DNA of 64,000 nucleotides from Anaeromyxobacter sp. Fw109-5. GTDB lineage: Bacteria > Myxococcota > Myxococcia > Myxococcales > Anaeromyxobacteraceae. The DNA lies in the NCBI RefSeq assembly GCF_000017505.1, contig NC_009675.1:3295001-3359000 (forward strand). Reading direction: 5' to 3'. Position 1 is the first letter of the stretch, and each line of letters starts with the position of its first letter. The position numbers and the translations under genes are program-made. The notes under the pieces are model-generated. The model searched no databases, had not been told where the DNA came from, and worked only from the letters and a program-made list of their open reading frames with translations. Positions 34,575 to 43,320 of this stretch are shown piece after piece.

Positions 34575-37553
34575 ATGTCGTCGAGACCGCTCGTCGGTCT
34601 GGCGCTCGCCGCGTTCGTCGCCGCGTGCTCCAGCTCGAGCCCGAAGAAGACCGAGAAGCCATGTAGCGTGACCTGCGCAGCACCGAACGTCTGCGTCGGA
34701 GAGGTCTGCAGCCCTCCCTCCTGCACGGACGGCGTGCGCGATGGCGACGAGACGGCCGTGGACTGCGGCGGCGCGTGCGCGCCGTGCACCAGCGGCGGCG
34801 CGTGCACCCTCCCGGAGGACTGCGACTCCGGCGTGTGCTCCGATGGGTCGTGCGCCGCGGCGAGCTGCGGTGACGGCGTCGAGAACGGTCAGGAGACGGA
34901 CGTGGACTGCGGCGGGAGCTGCTCGCCGTGTCCCGGCGGCGGCGCCTGCACCGGCGGGGGCGATTGCGCCTCCGGCGTCTGCGCCTCGGGGACCTGCGCG
35001 GAGCCCTCCTGCGACGACTCCGTCCAGAACGGCGACGAGACCGACGCCGACTGCGGCGGCTCGTGCGCGCCGTGCGCGAGCGGGGACGGCTGTGAATCCG
35101 GAAGCGACTGCGCCTCCGGAGCGTGCGCGTCCGGCGTGTGTACCCCGCCTGGCTGCGCGGACGGCGTGAAGAATGGCAGCGAGACCGACGTGGACTGCGG
35201 CGGCGCGTGCGCGGCGTGCGGCGTCGGCGGCGGCTGCGGCGCCGGGAGCGACTGCGGCTCGGGCGTTTGCAGCGAGGGCGCGTGCGTCGCCCCGACGTGC
35301 TCCGACGGTGTCACGAACGGGACCGAATCGGACGTGGACTGCGGCGGCACCTGCGAGCCATGCCCCGACGACGCGGGCTGCAACTCCCCCGCCGACTGCG
35401 CGTCGCAGGTCTGCACCAGCGGCGCTTGCCAGACGCCGACCTGCGATGATCGAGCGAAGAACGGGGACGAGACCGGTACCGACTGCGGCGGGCCGGCCTG
35501 TGGGCCGTGCGCGAACGGAGGCGGGTGCACCGAGGGGGCGGACTGCCTCTCCGGCACGTGCGCCGTCGGCGTCTGCGCCGACCCGAGCTGCACCGATGGG
35601 CAGCCCAACGGCACCGAGACCGGCACCGACTGCGGCGGCGGGAGCTGCCCGCCCTGTGGCGCGAACGAGGGCTGCGTCGTCCCGGCCGACTGCGCCTCCC
35701 AGGTCTGCACCGGCGGGGTGTGTCAGGCGCCTGCCTGCGACGACCAGGTGAAGAACGGCGACGAGAGCGACGTGGACTGCGGCGGGACCACGTGCGCTGG
35801 GTGCGTCGACGGGTTCTCCTGCGCGGGCCCTGAGGACTGCGCCTCTGCGAAGTGCATCGCCGGCGTCTGCTACCCGCAGTTCTGCGGGAACGCGCGGCTG
35901 GACGGCGACGAGACCGACGTCGACTGCGGCGGCTCTTGCCTCGCTTGCGGCCCCGGGGGCGCCTGCATCACTCCCGAGGACTGCACCTCGGGCGTGTGCA
36001 CCGGGAACGTCTGCCTCTCCCCCACCTGCGATGATCGCGTGAAGAACGGCCCCGAGACCGACGTCGACTGTGGGGGCCCGACGTGCAACGCGTGCACGAC
36101 CGGGTACCAGTGTGCCACCGGTACCGACTGCACCTCCGGAATCTGCACGGATGGGATCTGCCAGGCCCCGACCTGCGTCGACCAGGTGAAGAACGGGTTC
36201 GAGACCGGCGTCGACTGCGGCGGCTCCTGCGCGGGCTGCGGTGACGGCGGCGCGTGCCGGGTCGGCCCCGATTGCGACTCCGGCGTCTGCGCCGGGAACG
36301 TCTGCCAGGCACCGACCTGCGCGGACGGAGTGAAGAACGGCGCGGAGACGGGCGAGGACTGCGGCGGCGGAACCTGCAGCCCGTGCGAGAACCGCGAGGG
36401 TTGCGCCTCGAACGGCGACTGCGCGTCGGGCCTCTGCGTGAGCGGCGTGTGCGTCGCCGAACACTGCACGGACGCTGCGACCAACGGGGGCGAGACCGGT
36501 CTCGACTGCGGCGGCCCGGACTGCGCGCCGTGCGGCGACGGAGGGAATTGCCAGGTCGGGACCGACTGCGCCTCCGGCGTGTGCACGAACGGCACGTGTG
36601 CGCCGGCGACCTGCACCGACGGCGCGAAGAACGGTGACGAGAGCGACGCCGACTGCGGCGGGTCCTGCCCGGACTGCGGCGCGAACCAGGCCTGCACGTC
36701 GCCGTCCGACTGCGCGTCGGGGGTGTGCGTGAGCGGCGCTTGCCGAGATGCGACCTGCACCGACGCGGTCGAGAACGGCGGCGAGAGCGACATCGACTGT
36801 GGCGGCACCTGCCCGGCTTGCCCGCTCGGGCGGACGTGCACGAGCCCAGCCGACTGCAACGCGGGCGCGTGCGTCGCCGGGAAGTGCGCCGCGGTGAGCT
36901 GCGTGGCGCTGAAGCGCAGCGGGCTGGGCTTCCCCACGGGCACGTACTTCATCGCGCCGAACGGGACCTCGCCCGTCACGGCCTACTGCGACATGCGCAC
37001 GCTCGGCGGGGGCTGGACGCTGGTTCTCCGCGCGACGTCGACGAGCGGAGCGGAGTACCCGGCGGGCCTCGCCTACACGCAGTCCTACTCGGATTGGCTC
37101 ACGTCCGGCGTGGGGAGCCCGGTCGTCGCGCCGAAGGTGCTCTCGAGCCAGTACGTGTTCCCTCTCGAGCAGCTGAGGCGCCTCACCCTGCTCAGGAACG
37201 CGTACCTGCGCTTCTCCGCCGACGGCGTCACCCAGGTCGCGCGTCTCCGCAAGGTGAAGCTGTCCCCGGAGTACGCCATCCAGGGCCAGAATGGGCTAGC
37301 CGTCGCCGAGAAGCTCTGTGGGATCCAGTCGACCACGAGCTGCTTCCTGCGGGATCGTGGCATGCCGTTCGCGGCCCAGGGCGGCCCGGTTGGCCCCGCC
37401 GGCGCATGCGTCCTCGCGAACGGAGGGGTCGGGTTCTGGTACGACCCGAGCGGCTGCTACTCGCACAACCCGTTCCACGTGGACGACCCAGTCGCCTTCT
37501 CGAGAACGACGTCGGCCTCGGACACCGGGCACTGGAGCTGGTGGGTGCGCTGA
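34575..37553 (+). CDS. Cys-rich repeat lipoprotein with fibrinogen-like C-terminus
   Basis: A 992-residue lipoprotein (lipobox VAAC, lipid on C18). Residues about 50-778 are fifteen tandem repeats of 48-49 residues on the pattern C-D/TDGVKNGDET-DVDCGG-C-PC-GC-DC-SGVC-GVC, each with eight cysteines that probably form four disulfides. The last 215 residues resemble a fibrinogen C-terminal domain: SGLGFPTGTYFIAPNG, then AYCDMRTLGGGWTLVLR. Such modules bind ligands or carbohydrate in animals. It is likely an extended stalk with an adhesive head on the outer membrane. A strong hairpin follows the stop. Confidence 0.85.
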   Translation: MSSRPLVGLALAAFVAACSSSSPKKTEKPCSVTCAAPNVCVGEVCSPPSCTDGVRDGDETAVDCGGACAPCTSGGACTLPEDCDSGVCSDGSCAAASCGDGVENGQETDVDCGGSCSPCPGGGACTGGGDCASGVCASGTCAEPSCDDSVQNGDETDADCGGSCAPCASGDGCESGSDCASGACASGVCTPPGCADGVKNGSETDVDCGGACAACGVGGGCGAGSDCGSGVCSEGACVAPTCSDGVTNGTESDVDCGGTCEPCPDDAGCNSPADCASQVCTSGACQTPTCDDRAKNGDETGTDCGGPACGPCANGGGCTEGADCLSGTCAVGVCADPSCTDGQPNGTETGTDCGGGSCPPCGANEGCVVPADCASQVCTGGVCQAPACDDQVKNGDESDVDCGGTTCAGCVDGFSCAGPEDCASAKCIAGVCYPQFCGNARLDGDETDVDCGGSCLACGPGGACITPEDCTSGVCTGNVCLSPTCDDRVKNGPETDVDCGGPTCNACTTGYQCATGTDCTSGICTDGICQAPTCVDQVKNGFETGVDCGGSCAGCGDGGACRVGPDCDSGVCAGNVCQAPTCADGVKNGAETGEDCGGGTCSPCENREGCASNGDCASGLCVSGVCVAEHCTDAATNGGETGLDCGGPDCAPCGDGGNCQVGTDCASGVCTNGTCAPATCTDGAKNGDESDADCGGSCPDCGANQACTSPSDCASGVCVSGACRDATCTDAVENGGESDIDCGGTCPACPLGRTCTSPADCNAGACVAGKCAAVSCVALKRSGLGFPTGTYFIAPNGTSPVTAYCDMRTLGGGWTLVLRATSTSGAEYPAGLAYTQSYSDWLTSGVGSPVVAPKVLSSQYVFPLEQLRRLTLLRNAYLRFSADGVTQVARLRKVKLSPEYAIQGQNGLAVAEKLCGIQSTTSCFLRDRGMPFAAQGGPVGPAGACVLANGGVGFWYDPSGCYSHNPFHVDDPVAFSRTTSASDTGHWSWWVR

Positions 37554-38104: not shown

Positions 38105-38710
38105 TCACGTCCCGCAGAGCACCCGCACCTTCCGGACGGCGACGTCCACCTCCGCGGCGACGCGCGCGCGGAGCAGCTCCTCCTTCGCCGCCGAGCAGCG
38201 CGCGGCGTCCTCCTGCGCGCTCCGCGCGAGCGCCGGGTCGGACGGCTCCGGCGGCGCGGGCTCGCAGAGCGCTCCGGAGACGCGGCGGAGGTTCGTGAAC
38301 CGCGCGGTCTCGACCGCCACGCAGTCGCCGGGACGGAGGTCCGGCTGCTCGGTCACGACCCGCACCGAGCGCCCGTCCAGCAGGGTCACCGTGTACATCC
38401 AGGCCGGCATGGCGCCCTCGGCGGCAGCCGTCACCGCGCCGCCCACGAACGCGCCGGCGATCATCCCCGCCAGCGCGTCGGCCGGGCCGTGGTGATGGCC
38501 GCCGGTCGCGAGGAGTCCGATGAGCCCCCCGAGCAGGGCGCCGGCGGGCGCGTTGGACGGCCGCGCCACGTGCTCGGCGCCCACGACGCGCCCGTGCTCG
38601 ATGGTGACGTACGGCTCGAGCGGTGGACCTCCGGGCGCGTGGACGCAACCGGAGGGGAGCGCGAGCGCGGCGACGAGCGACGCGAACGCGAGACGGGGAC
38701 GGGACGTCAT
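38105..38710 (-). CDS. Glycine-zipper lipoprotein, hypothetical
   Basis: A 201-residue protein with a lipobox (PSGC, C22). Residues about 55-100 hold a glycine-zipper-like hydrophobic segment (GALLGGLIGLLATGG, then AGMIAGAFVGGAVTAAAEG) as in Gram-negative surface lipoproteins such as the 17-kDa antigen family. The C-terminal half is soluble with three more cysteines. Function is unknown. It precedes the thioesterase gene by 50 bases on the same strand. Confidence 0.6.
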   Translation of the reverse strand: MTSRPRLAFASLVAALALPSGCVHAPGGPPLEPYVTIEHGRVVGAEHVARPSNAPAGALLGGLIGLLATGGHHHGPADALAGMIAGAFVGGAVTAAAEGAMPAWMYTVTLLDGRSVRVVTEQPDLRPGDCVAVETARFTNLRRVSGALCEPAPPEPSDPALARSAQEDAARCSAAKEELLRARVAAEVDVAVRKVRVLCGT

Positions 38711-38893
38711 GGCGACCGACCTCTCCTGCTGGCGCGATCCTACGCGCGCGGGAACGCGGCGGAGCGCGCTCGCCACGGGCGCTTGGGTTCGCGGCATCGG
38801 GCTGAGGCGTCTCGCGCCAATCGCTCGCCTGCTCGTCCGGCGCCGAAGGGCACGTTGTCCCGTCCCCTCCTCCGCGGGTAGGCTGCCGCTCCC

Positions 38894-39604
38894 ATGATCT
38901 CGATCACGCGCTCGCTCCTCGCCGTCGCGCTGCTCGCCCGCGGCGCGCCCGCCCTGGCGCAGTCGTCCCTCTCGGCGCCCGGCGCCGCGCCCGCTTTCGG
39001 CGCGGAGGCGGAGTCCACGGCGGGCTGCCACTGCTTCCGCGACCGCACGTTCGAGCTCGAGCGGCCTGCGGCGGCGGACCCGTACATCCTGGCGACCACG
39101 CGCAGCTCGCTGCTGTCCGCGGCGTTCGGGCCCGCGAAGGCGAGCCTCGTGCAGGCGGTGATGACCGGCACGCCGCCGGAGGACCTGTGGATCGCGCACT
39201 TCGCCGCGGCGCGGGCGGGCGCGGAGCCGGGCGCGCTGCTCGAGGCGAAGGGCGCGAAGGGCGCCTGGAAGGCGGCGCTCGCGGGTACGAAGGGGATCGA
39301 CGGCCCGTTCGCGGCTGCGCTCGCCCGCGGCGCGCCCGACGCCGAGCTCGCGGCGCTCGCCGTGGAGGACGTCCTCGTGCGGCGCGCCGGGTCCACCGCC
39401 GAGGAGGTCCACGCGCTCCGCCAGGCGGGCGCGTCCACCGAGGACACGATCGTCGCGATCGTGCTCTCGAAGAAGCTCGCCACCCCCGCGGTGCCGCTCG
39501 TGCAGCGGGTGCGCGGCGGACACGCCACCTGGGGCCGCGTGCTGAACGACGCGGGGATCGTGCCGAAGCAGATGGACGGGATCGTGCGGGCCCTCGTGCG
39601 TTGA
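38894..39604 (+). CDS. Hypothetical exported protein
   Basis: A 236-residue protein with a signal peptide (1-22, ending ALA). A Cys pair CHC (45-47) opens the mature domain, followed by an alpha-helical repeat-like region of short Ala/Leu-rich helices, including EDVLVRRAGSTAEEVHALR. No family recognised. It is divergent from the glycine-zipper lipoprotein and convergent with the endonuclease V-like gene (six bases between stops). Confidence 0.55.
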   Translation: MISITRSLLAVALLARGAPALAQSSLSAPGAAPAFGAEAESTAGCHCFRDRTFELERPAAADPYILATTRSSLLSAAFGPAKASLVQAVMTGTPPEDLWIAHFAAARAGAEPGALLEAKGAKGAWKAALAGTKGIDGPFAAALARGAPDAELAALAVEDVLVRRAGSTAEEVHALRQAGASTEDTIVAIVLSKKLATPAVPLVQRVRGGHATWGRVLNDAGIVPKQMDGIVRALVR

Positions 39605-39610
39605 CCCCGC

Positions 39611-40306
39611 TCACCCGTCCCGCAGCGCCCGCGCCCGCTGGACGGCGCGGCGCAGCGGCTCAGGGAAGCGCGTGCCGCGCGTGGCGGCGAGCACGACCTC
39701 GGCCGCGATCTCGGGCGTGGTCCGCCAGCCCGCGTGGGCGACGATCGGGTGGACCCCTGCGCGCGTCCGCACCCGGCACGCGACCTCCTCGCCGTCGCGC
39801 GTGAGCGGGGCTCGCGCGCCGACGCGGTCCTCCGGCAGCGGCCCGCCGGCCACGAGCGGCCGGCGCGTGACGCCGACGGAGGGCAGGCCGAGCGCCGCGC
39901 CCAGCTTCACCGCGAGCCCGCAGGCGCGAGGGTGGTCTCTCCCCGCCGCGTGGACGAGGAGCAGGCCGGGGGCCTCGGGGAGCGCGACCACCGCCTCCGC
40001 GAGCAGGGGCCCCTCGCGCAGCGCGAGCAGCCCGCTCTCGAACCCTGCGCGGAGGGCGCCGACCGCCGCCGAGTACGCGAGCGCGGCCAGGCCGTCGCGG
40101 CCCAGCTCGACGAGCGCCGCCGCGGCGAAGCCGAGCTCCTCCTCCGCGGCGACCGCCCCGCCACGACGCGAGACGACGGCGCACCCCGCGACTCGCAGGG
40201 CCCCGCCCTCCCACCCCCACGGCGGAGGACGCGCGGCGCCGAGCCTCGCCTGAGCGTCCTCCAGCTCCGCACGCGTGCGCGGCCAACCGCGGAGCGCGAC
40301 GCTCAC
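39611..40306 (-). CDS. Endonuclease V-like protein lacking catalytic aspartates
   Basis: A 231-residue protein that aligns with endonuclease V (Nfi) along its length: LREGP (E98), PGLLLVHAAGRDHPRACGLAVKLG (113-135) and LPSVGVTR (141-148). In E. coli Nfi the metal-binding residues are D35, E89 and D110. Here the first lies at A43 (VAGCAVV) and the last at H119 (LLVHAAG), while the glutamate and the HP motif (H125) remain. The fold is probably kept but the deaminated-DNA nuclease activity is likely lost or altered. Its start overlaps the PEBP gene by four bases. Confidence 0.75.
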   Translation of the reverse strand: MSVALRGWPRTRAELEDAQARLGAARPPPWGWEGGALRVAGCAVVSRRGGAVAAEEELGFAAAALVELGRDGLAALAYSAAVGALRAGFESGLLALREGPLLAEAVVALPEAPGLLLVHAAGRDHPRACGLAVKLGAALGLPSVGVTRRPLVAGGPLPEDRVGARAPLTRDGEEVACRVRTRAGVHPIVAHAGWRTTPEIAAEVVLAATRGTRFPEPLRRAVQRARALRDG

Positions 40307-40782
40307 CGGCTCTTCTTCTGGTACGTCCCCATGACCCGCGCCTCCTCGAGGACGTGGCCCTTCATCGCCGCCTCGAGCTCCGCCTTCGTCGGGTGGCCCA
40401 GGTCAGGGAGCGCCGTGTCGAGCGCGTACAGCTTGAAGAAGTAGCGGTGACGGCCGATGGGCGGGCACGGCCCACCGTACCCGGTGCGCTTCCAGTCGTT
40501 GATCCCCTCGCGCGTGCCCGGCGGAAGATCCTTCGCCGCGACCGCCTCGGGCAGGCCCTTCGCATCGGATGGCAGCCCGTAGAGCACCCAGTGCACGTAG
40601 GTCATCTTGGGCGCCCTGGGATCGGGCGCGTCCGGATCGTCCACGACGAGCGCCAGGCTCCTCGCGCCCGCCGGGACGCCCGACCACGCGAGCGCCGGCG
40701 ACGTATCCTCCCCCTCGCACGTGTGGACCTGCGGGACCTCGCCTCCGTCCTCGAAGGCGGTGGAGCGGATCGACATCGTCAT
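40303..40782 (-). CDS. YbhB/YbcL-type phosphatidylethanolamine-binding-like protein
   Basis: A 159-residue cytosolic protein of the Raf kinase inhibitor-like (PEBP) family: ALVVDDPDAPDP, YVHWVLYGLP, and GYGGPCPPIGRHRYFFKLYALD, which contain the conserved anion-binding pocket residues. Bacterial members have no settled function. It is translationally coupled to the downstream endonuclease V-like gene. Confidence 0.88.
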   Translation of the reverse strand: MTMSIRSTAFEDGGEVPQVHTCEGEDTSPALAWSGVPAGARSLALVVDDPDAPDPRAPKMTYVHWVLYGLPSDAKGLPEAVAAKDLPPGTREGINDWKRTGYGGPCPPIGRHRYFFKLYALDTALPDLGHPTKAELEAAMKGHVLEEARVMGTYQKKSR

Positions 40783-40843
40783 GACGCTTCCCCCTCTGGC
40801 GGCGGCGCAGGCGACCGCGGCCGCCGCGTCCCCCGCGGCTCGG

Positions 40844-42145
<1,302 letters not shown>

Positions 42146-42538
42146 TCACAGGCCGCCGATCGGCTGCCCGAAGGTGAACTCGACGAGGTGCCCGTCCGGA
42201 TCGCGGACCATGGTCACGTAGCCGATGTCGCCGCCGCCGTCGAACGGGGGCTCGGCGAGGATGCCGAGCCGCGCGCCCTCGGCCGCGAGGCGATCCACCT
42301 CGGCGCGCGCCTCGCACTGGAAGCCGAGGTGGTCGAGGCGGAAGTCCACGCGGGTGAGGTAGAGCACGAGCACGAACGCCGGCGGACCGTCCGGCCGCGC
42401 CGCGGGCGCGAGCCAGACGGTGTGCCCTCCGGGACGGCCGTCGCGGACGACCTCCAGCCCGCAGAACCGCCGGTAGAAGGCGATCGAGCGCTCCAGGTCC
42501 GCGACCTTGACGACGACGTGGGTCCAGCGGGCGGCCAT
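42146..42538 (-). CDS. VOC-family (glyoxalase-like) protein
   Basis: A 130-residue protein of the vicinal oxygen chelate fold, with two beta-alpha-beta-beta-beta modules: WTHVVVKVADLERSIAFYRRFCGLE at the start and DGGGDIGYVTMVRDPDGHLVEFTFGQP at the end. Metal ligands are H7, H72 or nearby (DHLGF) and E121 (LVEF). Members are dioxygenases, glyoxalases or resistance proteins; this one cannot be placed further. Confidence 0.85.
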   Translation of the reverse strand: MAARWTHVVVKVADLERSIAFYRRFCGLEVVRDGRPGGHTVWLAPAARPDGPPAFVLVLYLTRVDFRLDHLGFQCEARAEVDRLAAEGARLGILAEPPFDGGGDIGYVTMVRDPDGHLVEFTFGQPIGGL

Positions 42539-42642: not shown

Positions 42643-43320
42643 ATGCCGGGGAGCCTCCTCTCGCGCCCGATCTCCGCGCCGCGCCGCGCCGTGCACGTGG
42701 GCGACGGCGTCGCCTGGCTCGAGGCGGGAGCGCTCCCGGCCGACCACGCGCTGGTGACGTCGCTCCCGGACGCGTCCGAGCTGCCGGCGCTCGGGGCCGA
42801 CGGGTGGCGGCGCTGGTTCCTCGCCGCCGCGGAGCGCGCCTGCCGCGCCGTCGCGGACGAGGCGGTCGCGATCTTCTACCAGACGGACGTGAAGCGCGAC
42901 GGCGCCTGGGTGGACAAGGCGTTCCTCGTGCAGCTCGCGGCGGAGCGCGCCGGCAGCGCCCTCCTGTGGCACAAGATCGTCTGCCGCGTCGCCCCGGGGA
43001 CGACCACCGTCGGCCGGCCCGCCTACGCGCACCTCCTCTGCGTGAGCCGGGCGCTGCGGCTCGCGCCGGGCCAGTCGTCGCCGGACGTCCTGCCCGTGGC
43101 GGGCGCCATGACCTGGCCCCGCGCGATGCCGCTCGAGGCCTGCGCCGCCGCGGCGCGATTCCTCGTCGCGCACACCCGCTGCCGGACGGTGGTGGATCCG
43201 TTCTGCGGGCTCGGCTCGATGCTCGCGGTCGCGAACGCCCACGGGCTCGACGCCGTGGGCGTGGAGCTCTCCCGCCAGCGCGCGGAGCGGGCGCGCGCGC
43301 TCGCCCTGCCCTGCGCCTGA
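42643..43320 (+). CDS. Methyltransferase-like protein with DNA/RNA MTase motif
   Basis: A 225-residue protein. The C-terminal third has a clear SAM-binding motif, VVDPFCGLGSMLAVANAHGLDAVGVELS (about 185-212), in the form used by N6/N4 DNA methylases and TRM11-like RNA methylases. Motif I comes last, so the domain would be permuted. The middle (IFYQTDVKRDGAWVDKAFL) is distinctive, but I see no DPPY-type catalytic motif. The target is unknown. Confidence 0.6.
   Translation: MPGSLLSRPISAPRRAVHVGDGVAWLEAGALPADHALVTSLPDASELPALGADGWRRWFLAAAERACRAVADEAVAIFYQTDVKRDGAWVDKAFLVQLAAERAGSALLWHKIVCRVAPGTTTVGRPAYAHLLCVSRALRLAPGQSSPDVLPVAGAMTWPRAMPLEACAAAARFLVAHTRCRTVVDPFCGLGSMLAVANAHGLDAVGVELSRQRAERARALALPCA

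Follow-up and report, generated by a model that had tools for sequence, protein, structure and literature searches.

The gene at 39611-40306 (minus strand) of the window, by which the whole 64,000-nucleotide stretch of Anaeromyxobacter sp. Fw109-5 DNA analysed here is meant, encodes a 231-residue protein (P0001) with the fold of endonuclease V (EndoV) and without the EndoV metal and phosphate site. Such proteins appear, from their sequences, to form a distinct EndoV-fold subfamily that apparently has another job. The reading tentatively favoured here is that two-metal EndoV cleavage was lost in the P0001 subfamily and that the site was rebuilt for another role, likely the binding of nucleic acid or nucleotides without cutting.

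The P0001 frame is read from 40306 to 39611, begins with a GTG codon and contains neither a frameshift nor an internal stop, as the original prediction had stated. The EndoV family PF04493 matched residues 59-221 (E 4.7e-31, 108.4 bits, curated cut-off 23.4), and the nearest PDB relatives by sequence were EndoV structures (3goc, E 1.4e-22). The NCBI equivalog for deoxyribonuclease V (NF008629) was not reached (93.1 bits, cut-off 230). No model in Pfam or NCBIfam sets the P0001 subfamily apart; only EndoV and a sub-threshold Endo_dU (PF01949) match were found. The source genome (5.28 Mb, single contig) holds P0001 as its one PF04493 match.

An AF2 model of P0001, the best of five built from a 5-row alignment, had a mean pLDDT of 86.9 and a pTM of 0.87, with two of the five models at pLDDT 67 and 60. 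The best model was matched to T. maritima EndoV bound to DNA (2w35) with Z 30.4 and an rmsd of 2.0 A over 221 aligned residues, and P0001 is thus predicted to adopt the RNase H-like EndoV fold. Both the assignment to the EndoV family and the claim that the fold is preserved therefore hold. Two other groups resembled P0001 more remotely. The DUF99/Endo_dU family (PF01949) gave a sub-threshold sequence match (E 0.15) and a fold match to 2qh9, a structure of that family, at Z 13.8, but P0001 scored 11.9 bits against its cut-off of 32.7, compared with 108.4 bits for EndoV. The prokaryotic Argonautes, whose PIWI domain is RNase H-like, showed weaker fold similarity to the model (Z 11-12); unlike them, P0001 is a single small domain without a partner domain, and there is no sequence relation. 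Binding of guide and target in the absence of cleavage is known for certain Argonautes.

According to PMC4650699, the magnesium ligands of T. maritima EndoV are D43, D110 and E89 (Gln in the crystallised protein), the cut phosphate is held by K139 and H214, the base pocket is formed via the backbone of G83, L85, G111, G113, G121 and L142, and a PYIP wedge (residues 79-82) enters the DNA helix and separates its strands. In E. coli numbering, set by motif and alignment, D35, E82 and D103 make up the triad, and K132 is the lysine. In an alignment of 93 rows (MAFFT L-INS-i) and by hhalign, the place of D35 (T. maritima D43) is taken in P0001 by A43 (codon 40178-40180, minus strand). H119 (codon 39950-39952, minus strand) stands at D103 (T. 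maritima D110) in these and in a third alignment, based on an HMM of canonical rows only. The original prediction had named these two replacements correctly while mixing its numbering schemes, D35 being an E. coli position and D110 a T. maritima one. It had also held that the flanking motifs are preserved, which is true of the HPR motif and of the catalytic glutamate, E98 in P0001 (codon 40013-40015, minus strand; E. coli E82, T. maritima E89). It had overlooked that K139 (E. coli K132) is replaced by R148, that H214 is replaced by V222, as mapped by motif, and that the wedge PYIP reads GFES (residues 88-91). P0001 thus retains one residue of the Asp-Glu-Asp triad (A43, E98, H119) and neither the phosphate-holding Lys/His pair nor the strand-separating wedge of an active EndoV.

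The possibility that an aspartate was displaced by a small shift was considered for both sites. The hhalign comparison of seven subfamily with five canonical rows gave the same residue pairs (99.8% probability, E 7.1e-30). In the HMM-based alignment all 12 other listed sites agree, but the D35 state is filled by A51 rather than A43 and shows a gap in 10 of 27 subfamily rows. Strand 1 is thus slightly uncertain in its register and is the least secure part of the mapping. Because no Asp occurs in P0001 between residues 17 and 71, a small register shift cannot restore D35. In the subfamily, 25 of 26 readable rows have no displaced Asp up to six residues away from the aligned position; the acidic residues near it are an Asp at +6 in L110 and Glu at +4 in L045 and +6 in L105. 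That D124 might be a shifted D103 was ruled out, the V-x-x-x-G and HPR flanks aligning without gaps in both MAFFT and hhalign.

The same losses were found throughout the relatives of P0001. Residue counts compare 27 subfamily rows with 65 canonical rows; the homologue L046 belongs to neither group, and the 93-row alignment omits identical duplicates and a short second Myxococcota EndoV type (which fell short of E 1e-10 with the subfamily profile described below). At the D35 column the subfamily has Phe in 21 and Ala in 5 of 26 readable rows (one row lacks the segment) and never Asp, against Asp in all 55 readable canonical rows. Lysine is absent from the K132 column in 27/27 (D 10, R 5, A 3, Q 2, H 2, N 2, others 3) and present in 65/65 canonical rows. 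The D103 column, Asp in 65/65 canonical rows, reads N 12, D 9, H 4, P 1 and A 1, so that on the suggested check in orthologues the first Asp and the Lys proved to be lost subfamily-wide and the second Asp to be kept in 9/27. By contrast with these columns, E82 is kept (E 26, Q 1; canonical E 65/65), as is the HPR histidine H109 in 27/27. The place of H214 (column 206) holds R 24, V 2 and L 1, against H 58 and D 7 of 65 canonical rows.

These counts bear on whether a weak residual cutting of inosine-containing nucleic acid persists, with E82, D108 or H175 in place of the lost metal ligands. The retained E82 and H109, and D103 in nine members, would fit such an activity. However, the first Asp is missing in every readable member, the equivalent mouse mutant D52A showed no activity on any tested substrate in PMC4842958, and the phosphate-holding Lys is gone in 27/27, which together make residual cutting improbable.

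The losses are accompanied by gains. Residues newly fixed in the subfamily, at columns where the canonical residues differ, are D108, T131, A137, H175, W178 and R210 (27/27 each) and R107 and R133 (26/27 each), and E82, R81 and H109 are kept alongside them. D108 is the Asp preceding HPR, where 63/65 canonical rows have Ala; in P0001 it is D124, adjacent to the HPR histidine H125 (codons 39932-39937, minus strand), and the HMM-based alignment agrees on both. T147 and R149 were gained on either side of R148, at the lost Lys (codons 39860-39868, minus strand). H191 replaces a canonical Ser and W194 a canonical His (27/27 each; codons 39725-39736, minus strand), and the invariant R226 of column 210 follows V222 (codons 39629-39643, minus strand). 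Since the losses come with a fixed new polar set, the pattern is that of one residue set swapped for another and not of mere decay. Subfamily rows have a median pI of 10.6 and a net charge of +7; for the 54 canonical rows of full length these values are 9.5 and +5.

In the AF2 model A43 lies within strand 37-46 and H119 immediately past strand 115-118; D124-H125 belong to the loop after the latter, T147-R149 to the end of strand 143-147, H191 lies inside strand 188-192 with W194 just beyond, and R226 belongs to the C-terminal, last helix. Such strand ends border the active site in an RNase H-like sheet. From these positions and this layout, we infer that the new residues occupy the segments that held the old active site (the loop following strand 4, the ends of the fifth and the last strand, and the last helix) and probably face it.

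Such a set could belong to a new enzyme, in which E82, D108, H109 and H175, with R107, R133 and W178, would be catalytic on a nucleotide or nucleic-acid substrate, perhaps with another metal. Polar residues fixed in 26-27 of 27 rows at a mean identity of 57% among subfamily rows speak for it, as does their persistence in all four Anaeromyxobacter proteins, even though Ala and His have come to occupy the old Asp sites there. Invariant residues are found in binding sites too, however, neither Pfam nor NCBIfam gave a match to a known family with such a site, and the neighbouring genes give no clue to a substrate, so that a new enzyme seems possible but rather unlikely.

The favoured reading, a binder that does not cut, draws on the same residues. 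The metal ligand D35 and the phosphate-holding Lys were lost subfamily-wide and the second Asp has drifted, and the added arginines may have taken over the holding of the phosphate from the metal and the Lys/His pair. Arginines gained near the lost Lys and His suggest that a phosphate is still held without metal, and with arginines in these roles the protein would most likely bind nucleic acid or a nucleotide without cutting. The base may still be placed in the kept EndoV pocket, of which G76, L78, G106, G114 and L135 (E. coli; T. maritima G83, L85, G113, G121 and L142) are conserved in 26-27 of 27 rows. PMC4650699 describes E. coli EndoV as needing no metal to bind ssDNA and ssRNA, and in PMC4842958 the dead mouse D52A gave stronger gel shifts than the wild type; these two reports make a binder role plausible. 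Inosine DNA was co-crystallised with T. maritima D110N, according to the title of PDB 6ozf, and Asn is the residue at the D103 place in 12/27 subfamily members. These dead mutants lost the same metal ligands and still bind, but they carry single laboratory changes, whereas the subfamily lost several residues in nature and gained others elsewhere in the site.

Binding of damaged nucleic acid by P0001, the example given in the original prediction, is possible, with five of the six lesion-pocket positions kept, but the wedge is altered. Counting against a reader of damaged DNA, and against the favoured binder reading too, the wedge Ile became Glu in 18/27 rows (mostly x-Y-E-P) and its Pro72 was replaced in 18/27 and kept in 9/27, and pocket G104 (T. 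maritima G111) became Ala in 26/27. The wedge Tyr is Phe in the five Anaeromyxobacter rows and that of G042.

The extent of the subfamily was established by several searches. When the proteins of 24 genomes from the host's family were searched, relatives of P0001 were found in 4/9 genomes of the genus and 0/15 others, and PF04493 matched in 94 of 195 Myxococcota genomes. The A2 profile, built from seven subfamily rows and run over 384 genomes, gave 237-375 bits for the subfamily and at most 141 bits for all other EndoV, and placed the subfamily also in two genomes outside Myxococcota. Searches of the two other phyla concerned found it in 19/43 genomes (phylum of G269) and 1/80 (phylum of G366). 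The total is 27 distinct proteins in 27 genomes, comprising these 20 and seven from Myxococcota (G000, A. oryzae G003, G005, G008, G157, G042 and G035). Plasmid copies were not found by tblastn, and no viral copy was confirmed. In a quick maximum-likelihood tree without bootstrap of 50 rows (the 27 and 23 picked from 66 others), the subfamily is monophyletic on one side of a long-stem branch (SH-aLRT 100). The Anaeromyxobacter, G157 and G042 rows nest among rows from the phylum of G269 (supports 89 and 90), which suggests that the subfamily spread between phyla by gene transfer. Two rows have peculiarities of their own. The A. oryzae protein (L007 3977-4717) carries a 13-residue in-frame insertion of the P-H-P-G-P-L-P-R type that resembles a translated interspersed repeat. 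The G042 gene (L043 2804-3479) changes frame after the first strand, through a real break or an assembly error; its broken N-terminal frame, read by eye, gives GACAV, likewise without Asp.

As far as the assemblies show, no carrier genome holds an intact second, canonical EndoV. Each of the seven Myxococcota carriers has one PF04493 match, as have 18 of 19 carriers in the phylum of G269; the second match in the remaining one, G395, is partial (88 aa, on a short contig) and itself subfamily-like. G366, searched with the A2 profile only, gave one match. The only canonical EndoV of the phylum of G269 sits in G424, a non-carrier. Other unusual homologues were seen in Myxococcota. L046 (G034:C35:8500-13000, minus strand) also lacks D35 (Ile), D103 (Asn) and K132 (Pro), keeps Tyr, Glu and HPR, and falls outside the 27-member group on the tree. 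Many Myxococcota encode a second, short EndoV type of about 180 aa (PF04493 E about 1e-7 to 1e-15; L011, L012, L047-L060 and L062), in which the positions of D35, Tyr, Glu, D103 and Lys are retained and HPR and an internal stretch are missing.

Judged by substitution rates, the subfamily is under purifying selection: NG86 dN/dS was 0.18-0.57 in 12 subfamily pairs, including 0.18-0.40 in eight pairs from the phylum of G269. In three Anaeromyxobacter pairs, the ratio was 0.39-0.41 for the EndoV-like gene against 0.12-0.17 for the adjacent PEBP gene, so the constraint is real yet weaker in Anaeromyxobacter; the synonymous rate is probably underestimated at 94% GC3. This difference, together with the presence of the gene in only 4/9 genomes of the genus and the broken frame of G042 (if not an assembly error), could reflect decay under selection relaxed once EndoV was unneeded. 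Ratios well under 1, down to 0.18-0.40 in the other phylum, and the unchanged GRDHPR, Thr, His and Trp of the four Anaeromyxobacter proteins whose old Asp sites became Ala and His make decay very improbable. Likewise, P0001 as a pseudogene was not favoured, its motifs being conserved and dN/dS below 1. The claim of a functional non-nuclease is well supported at the level of sequence, the losses being conserved in 27 members under purifying selection.

The neighbourhood of P0001 offers no comparable support. The original prediction had cited coupling to the PEBP (YbhB/YbcL-like) gene upstream (40303-40782, minus strand; PF01161 E 5.1e-46). The overlap is real, the start codon of P0001 sharing 4 bases with the TGA of that gene, but as functional support it fails, since the order aldo/keto reductase, PEBP, EndoV and downstream gene is shared by G000, G005 and G008 alone. 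In G001, G002, G003, G004 and G006 the PEBP gene is present and the subfamily gene is not nearby; in A. oryzae (G003) about 343 kb separates the two, and this EndoV is missing from four other Anaeromyxobacter genomes that do encode PEBP. A functional link was therefore rejected as weak, and the PEBP gene is probably a local neighbour, not a functional partner. Among the 27 loci, where neighbours were called by ORF homology only and one cluster (9 loci) may be an antisense reading, neither a general companion gene nor a neighbour supporting a nucleic-acid role was found. The commonest neighbours that were identified are a DUF72 gene, mostly divergent and adjacent, at 6/27 loci (in L143 it is some 4 kb away on the upstream side), and an upstream AhpC/TSA-redoxin gene at 4/27. 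P0001 had no PADLOC match to defence systems, and no Rfam match was obtained within 38500-42500 of the window. Elsewhere in the window, 42643-43320 (plus strand) encodes a protein of 225 residues that contains a DPFCG motif and is kept in G005 and G008; its DNA methylase match is weak and sub-threshold (PF01555 E 0.00035). The frame at 34575-37553 (plus strand) encodes a 992-aa protein with many Cys-rich repeats of the ETDVDCGG type and a weak fibrinogen C-like match near the C end, just below the cut-off.

EndoV is described as a single conserved inosine nuclease from bacteria to mammals. Compared with the EndoV of E. coli (Nfi) and T. maritima (PF04493), P0001 shares the fold, E82, R81, HPR, the pocket glycines and most core motifs, whereas its subfamily lacks D35 and K132 (T. 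maritima K139), treats D103 as optional, has an altered wedge and adds D108, T131, R133, H175, W178 and R210. No account of an EndoV subfamily without catalytic residues was found in the literature covered, which excludes most subscription journals, nor any paper on endonuclease V that also mentions Anaeromyxobacter; the available passages of PMC4650699, PMC4842958 and PMC4693234 hold no account of such a subfamily.

Taken to its fullest extent, the finding might describe an ancient EndoV branch in which the nuclease centre gave way to a new site (Glu, Asp-His, Thr-x-Arg, His, Trp and Arg), serving a new activity or the reading of modified bases or nucleotides, which was transferred between phyla and replaces EndoV in its hosts; as a whole this account is somewhat doubtful. 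A nuclease centre discarded in one stem, with other residues fixed there, would show reuse of the EndoV pocket. The natural variants at the second Asp (D, N, H, P and A) would provide a ready set for testing the function of the fold without cutting. Such genes should not be named "deoxyribonuclease V", nor should their hosts be counted as competent for inosine repair.
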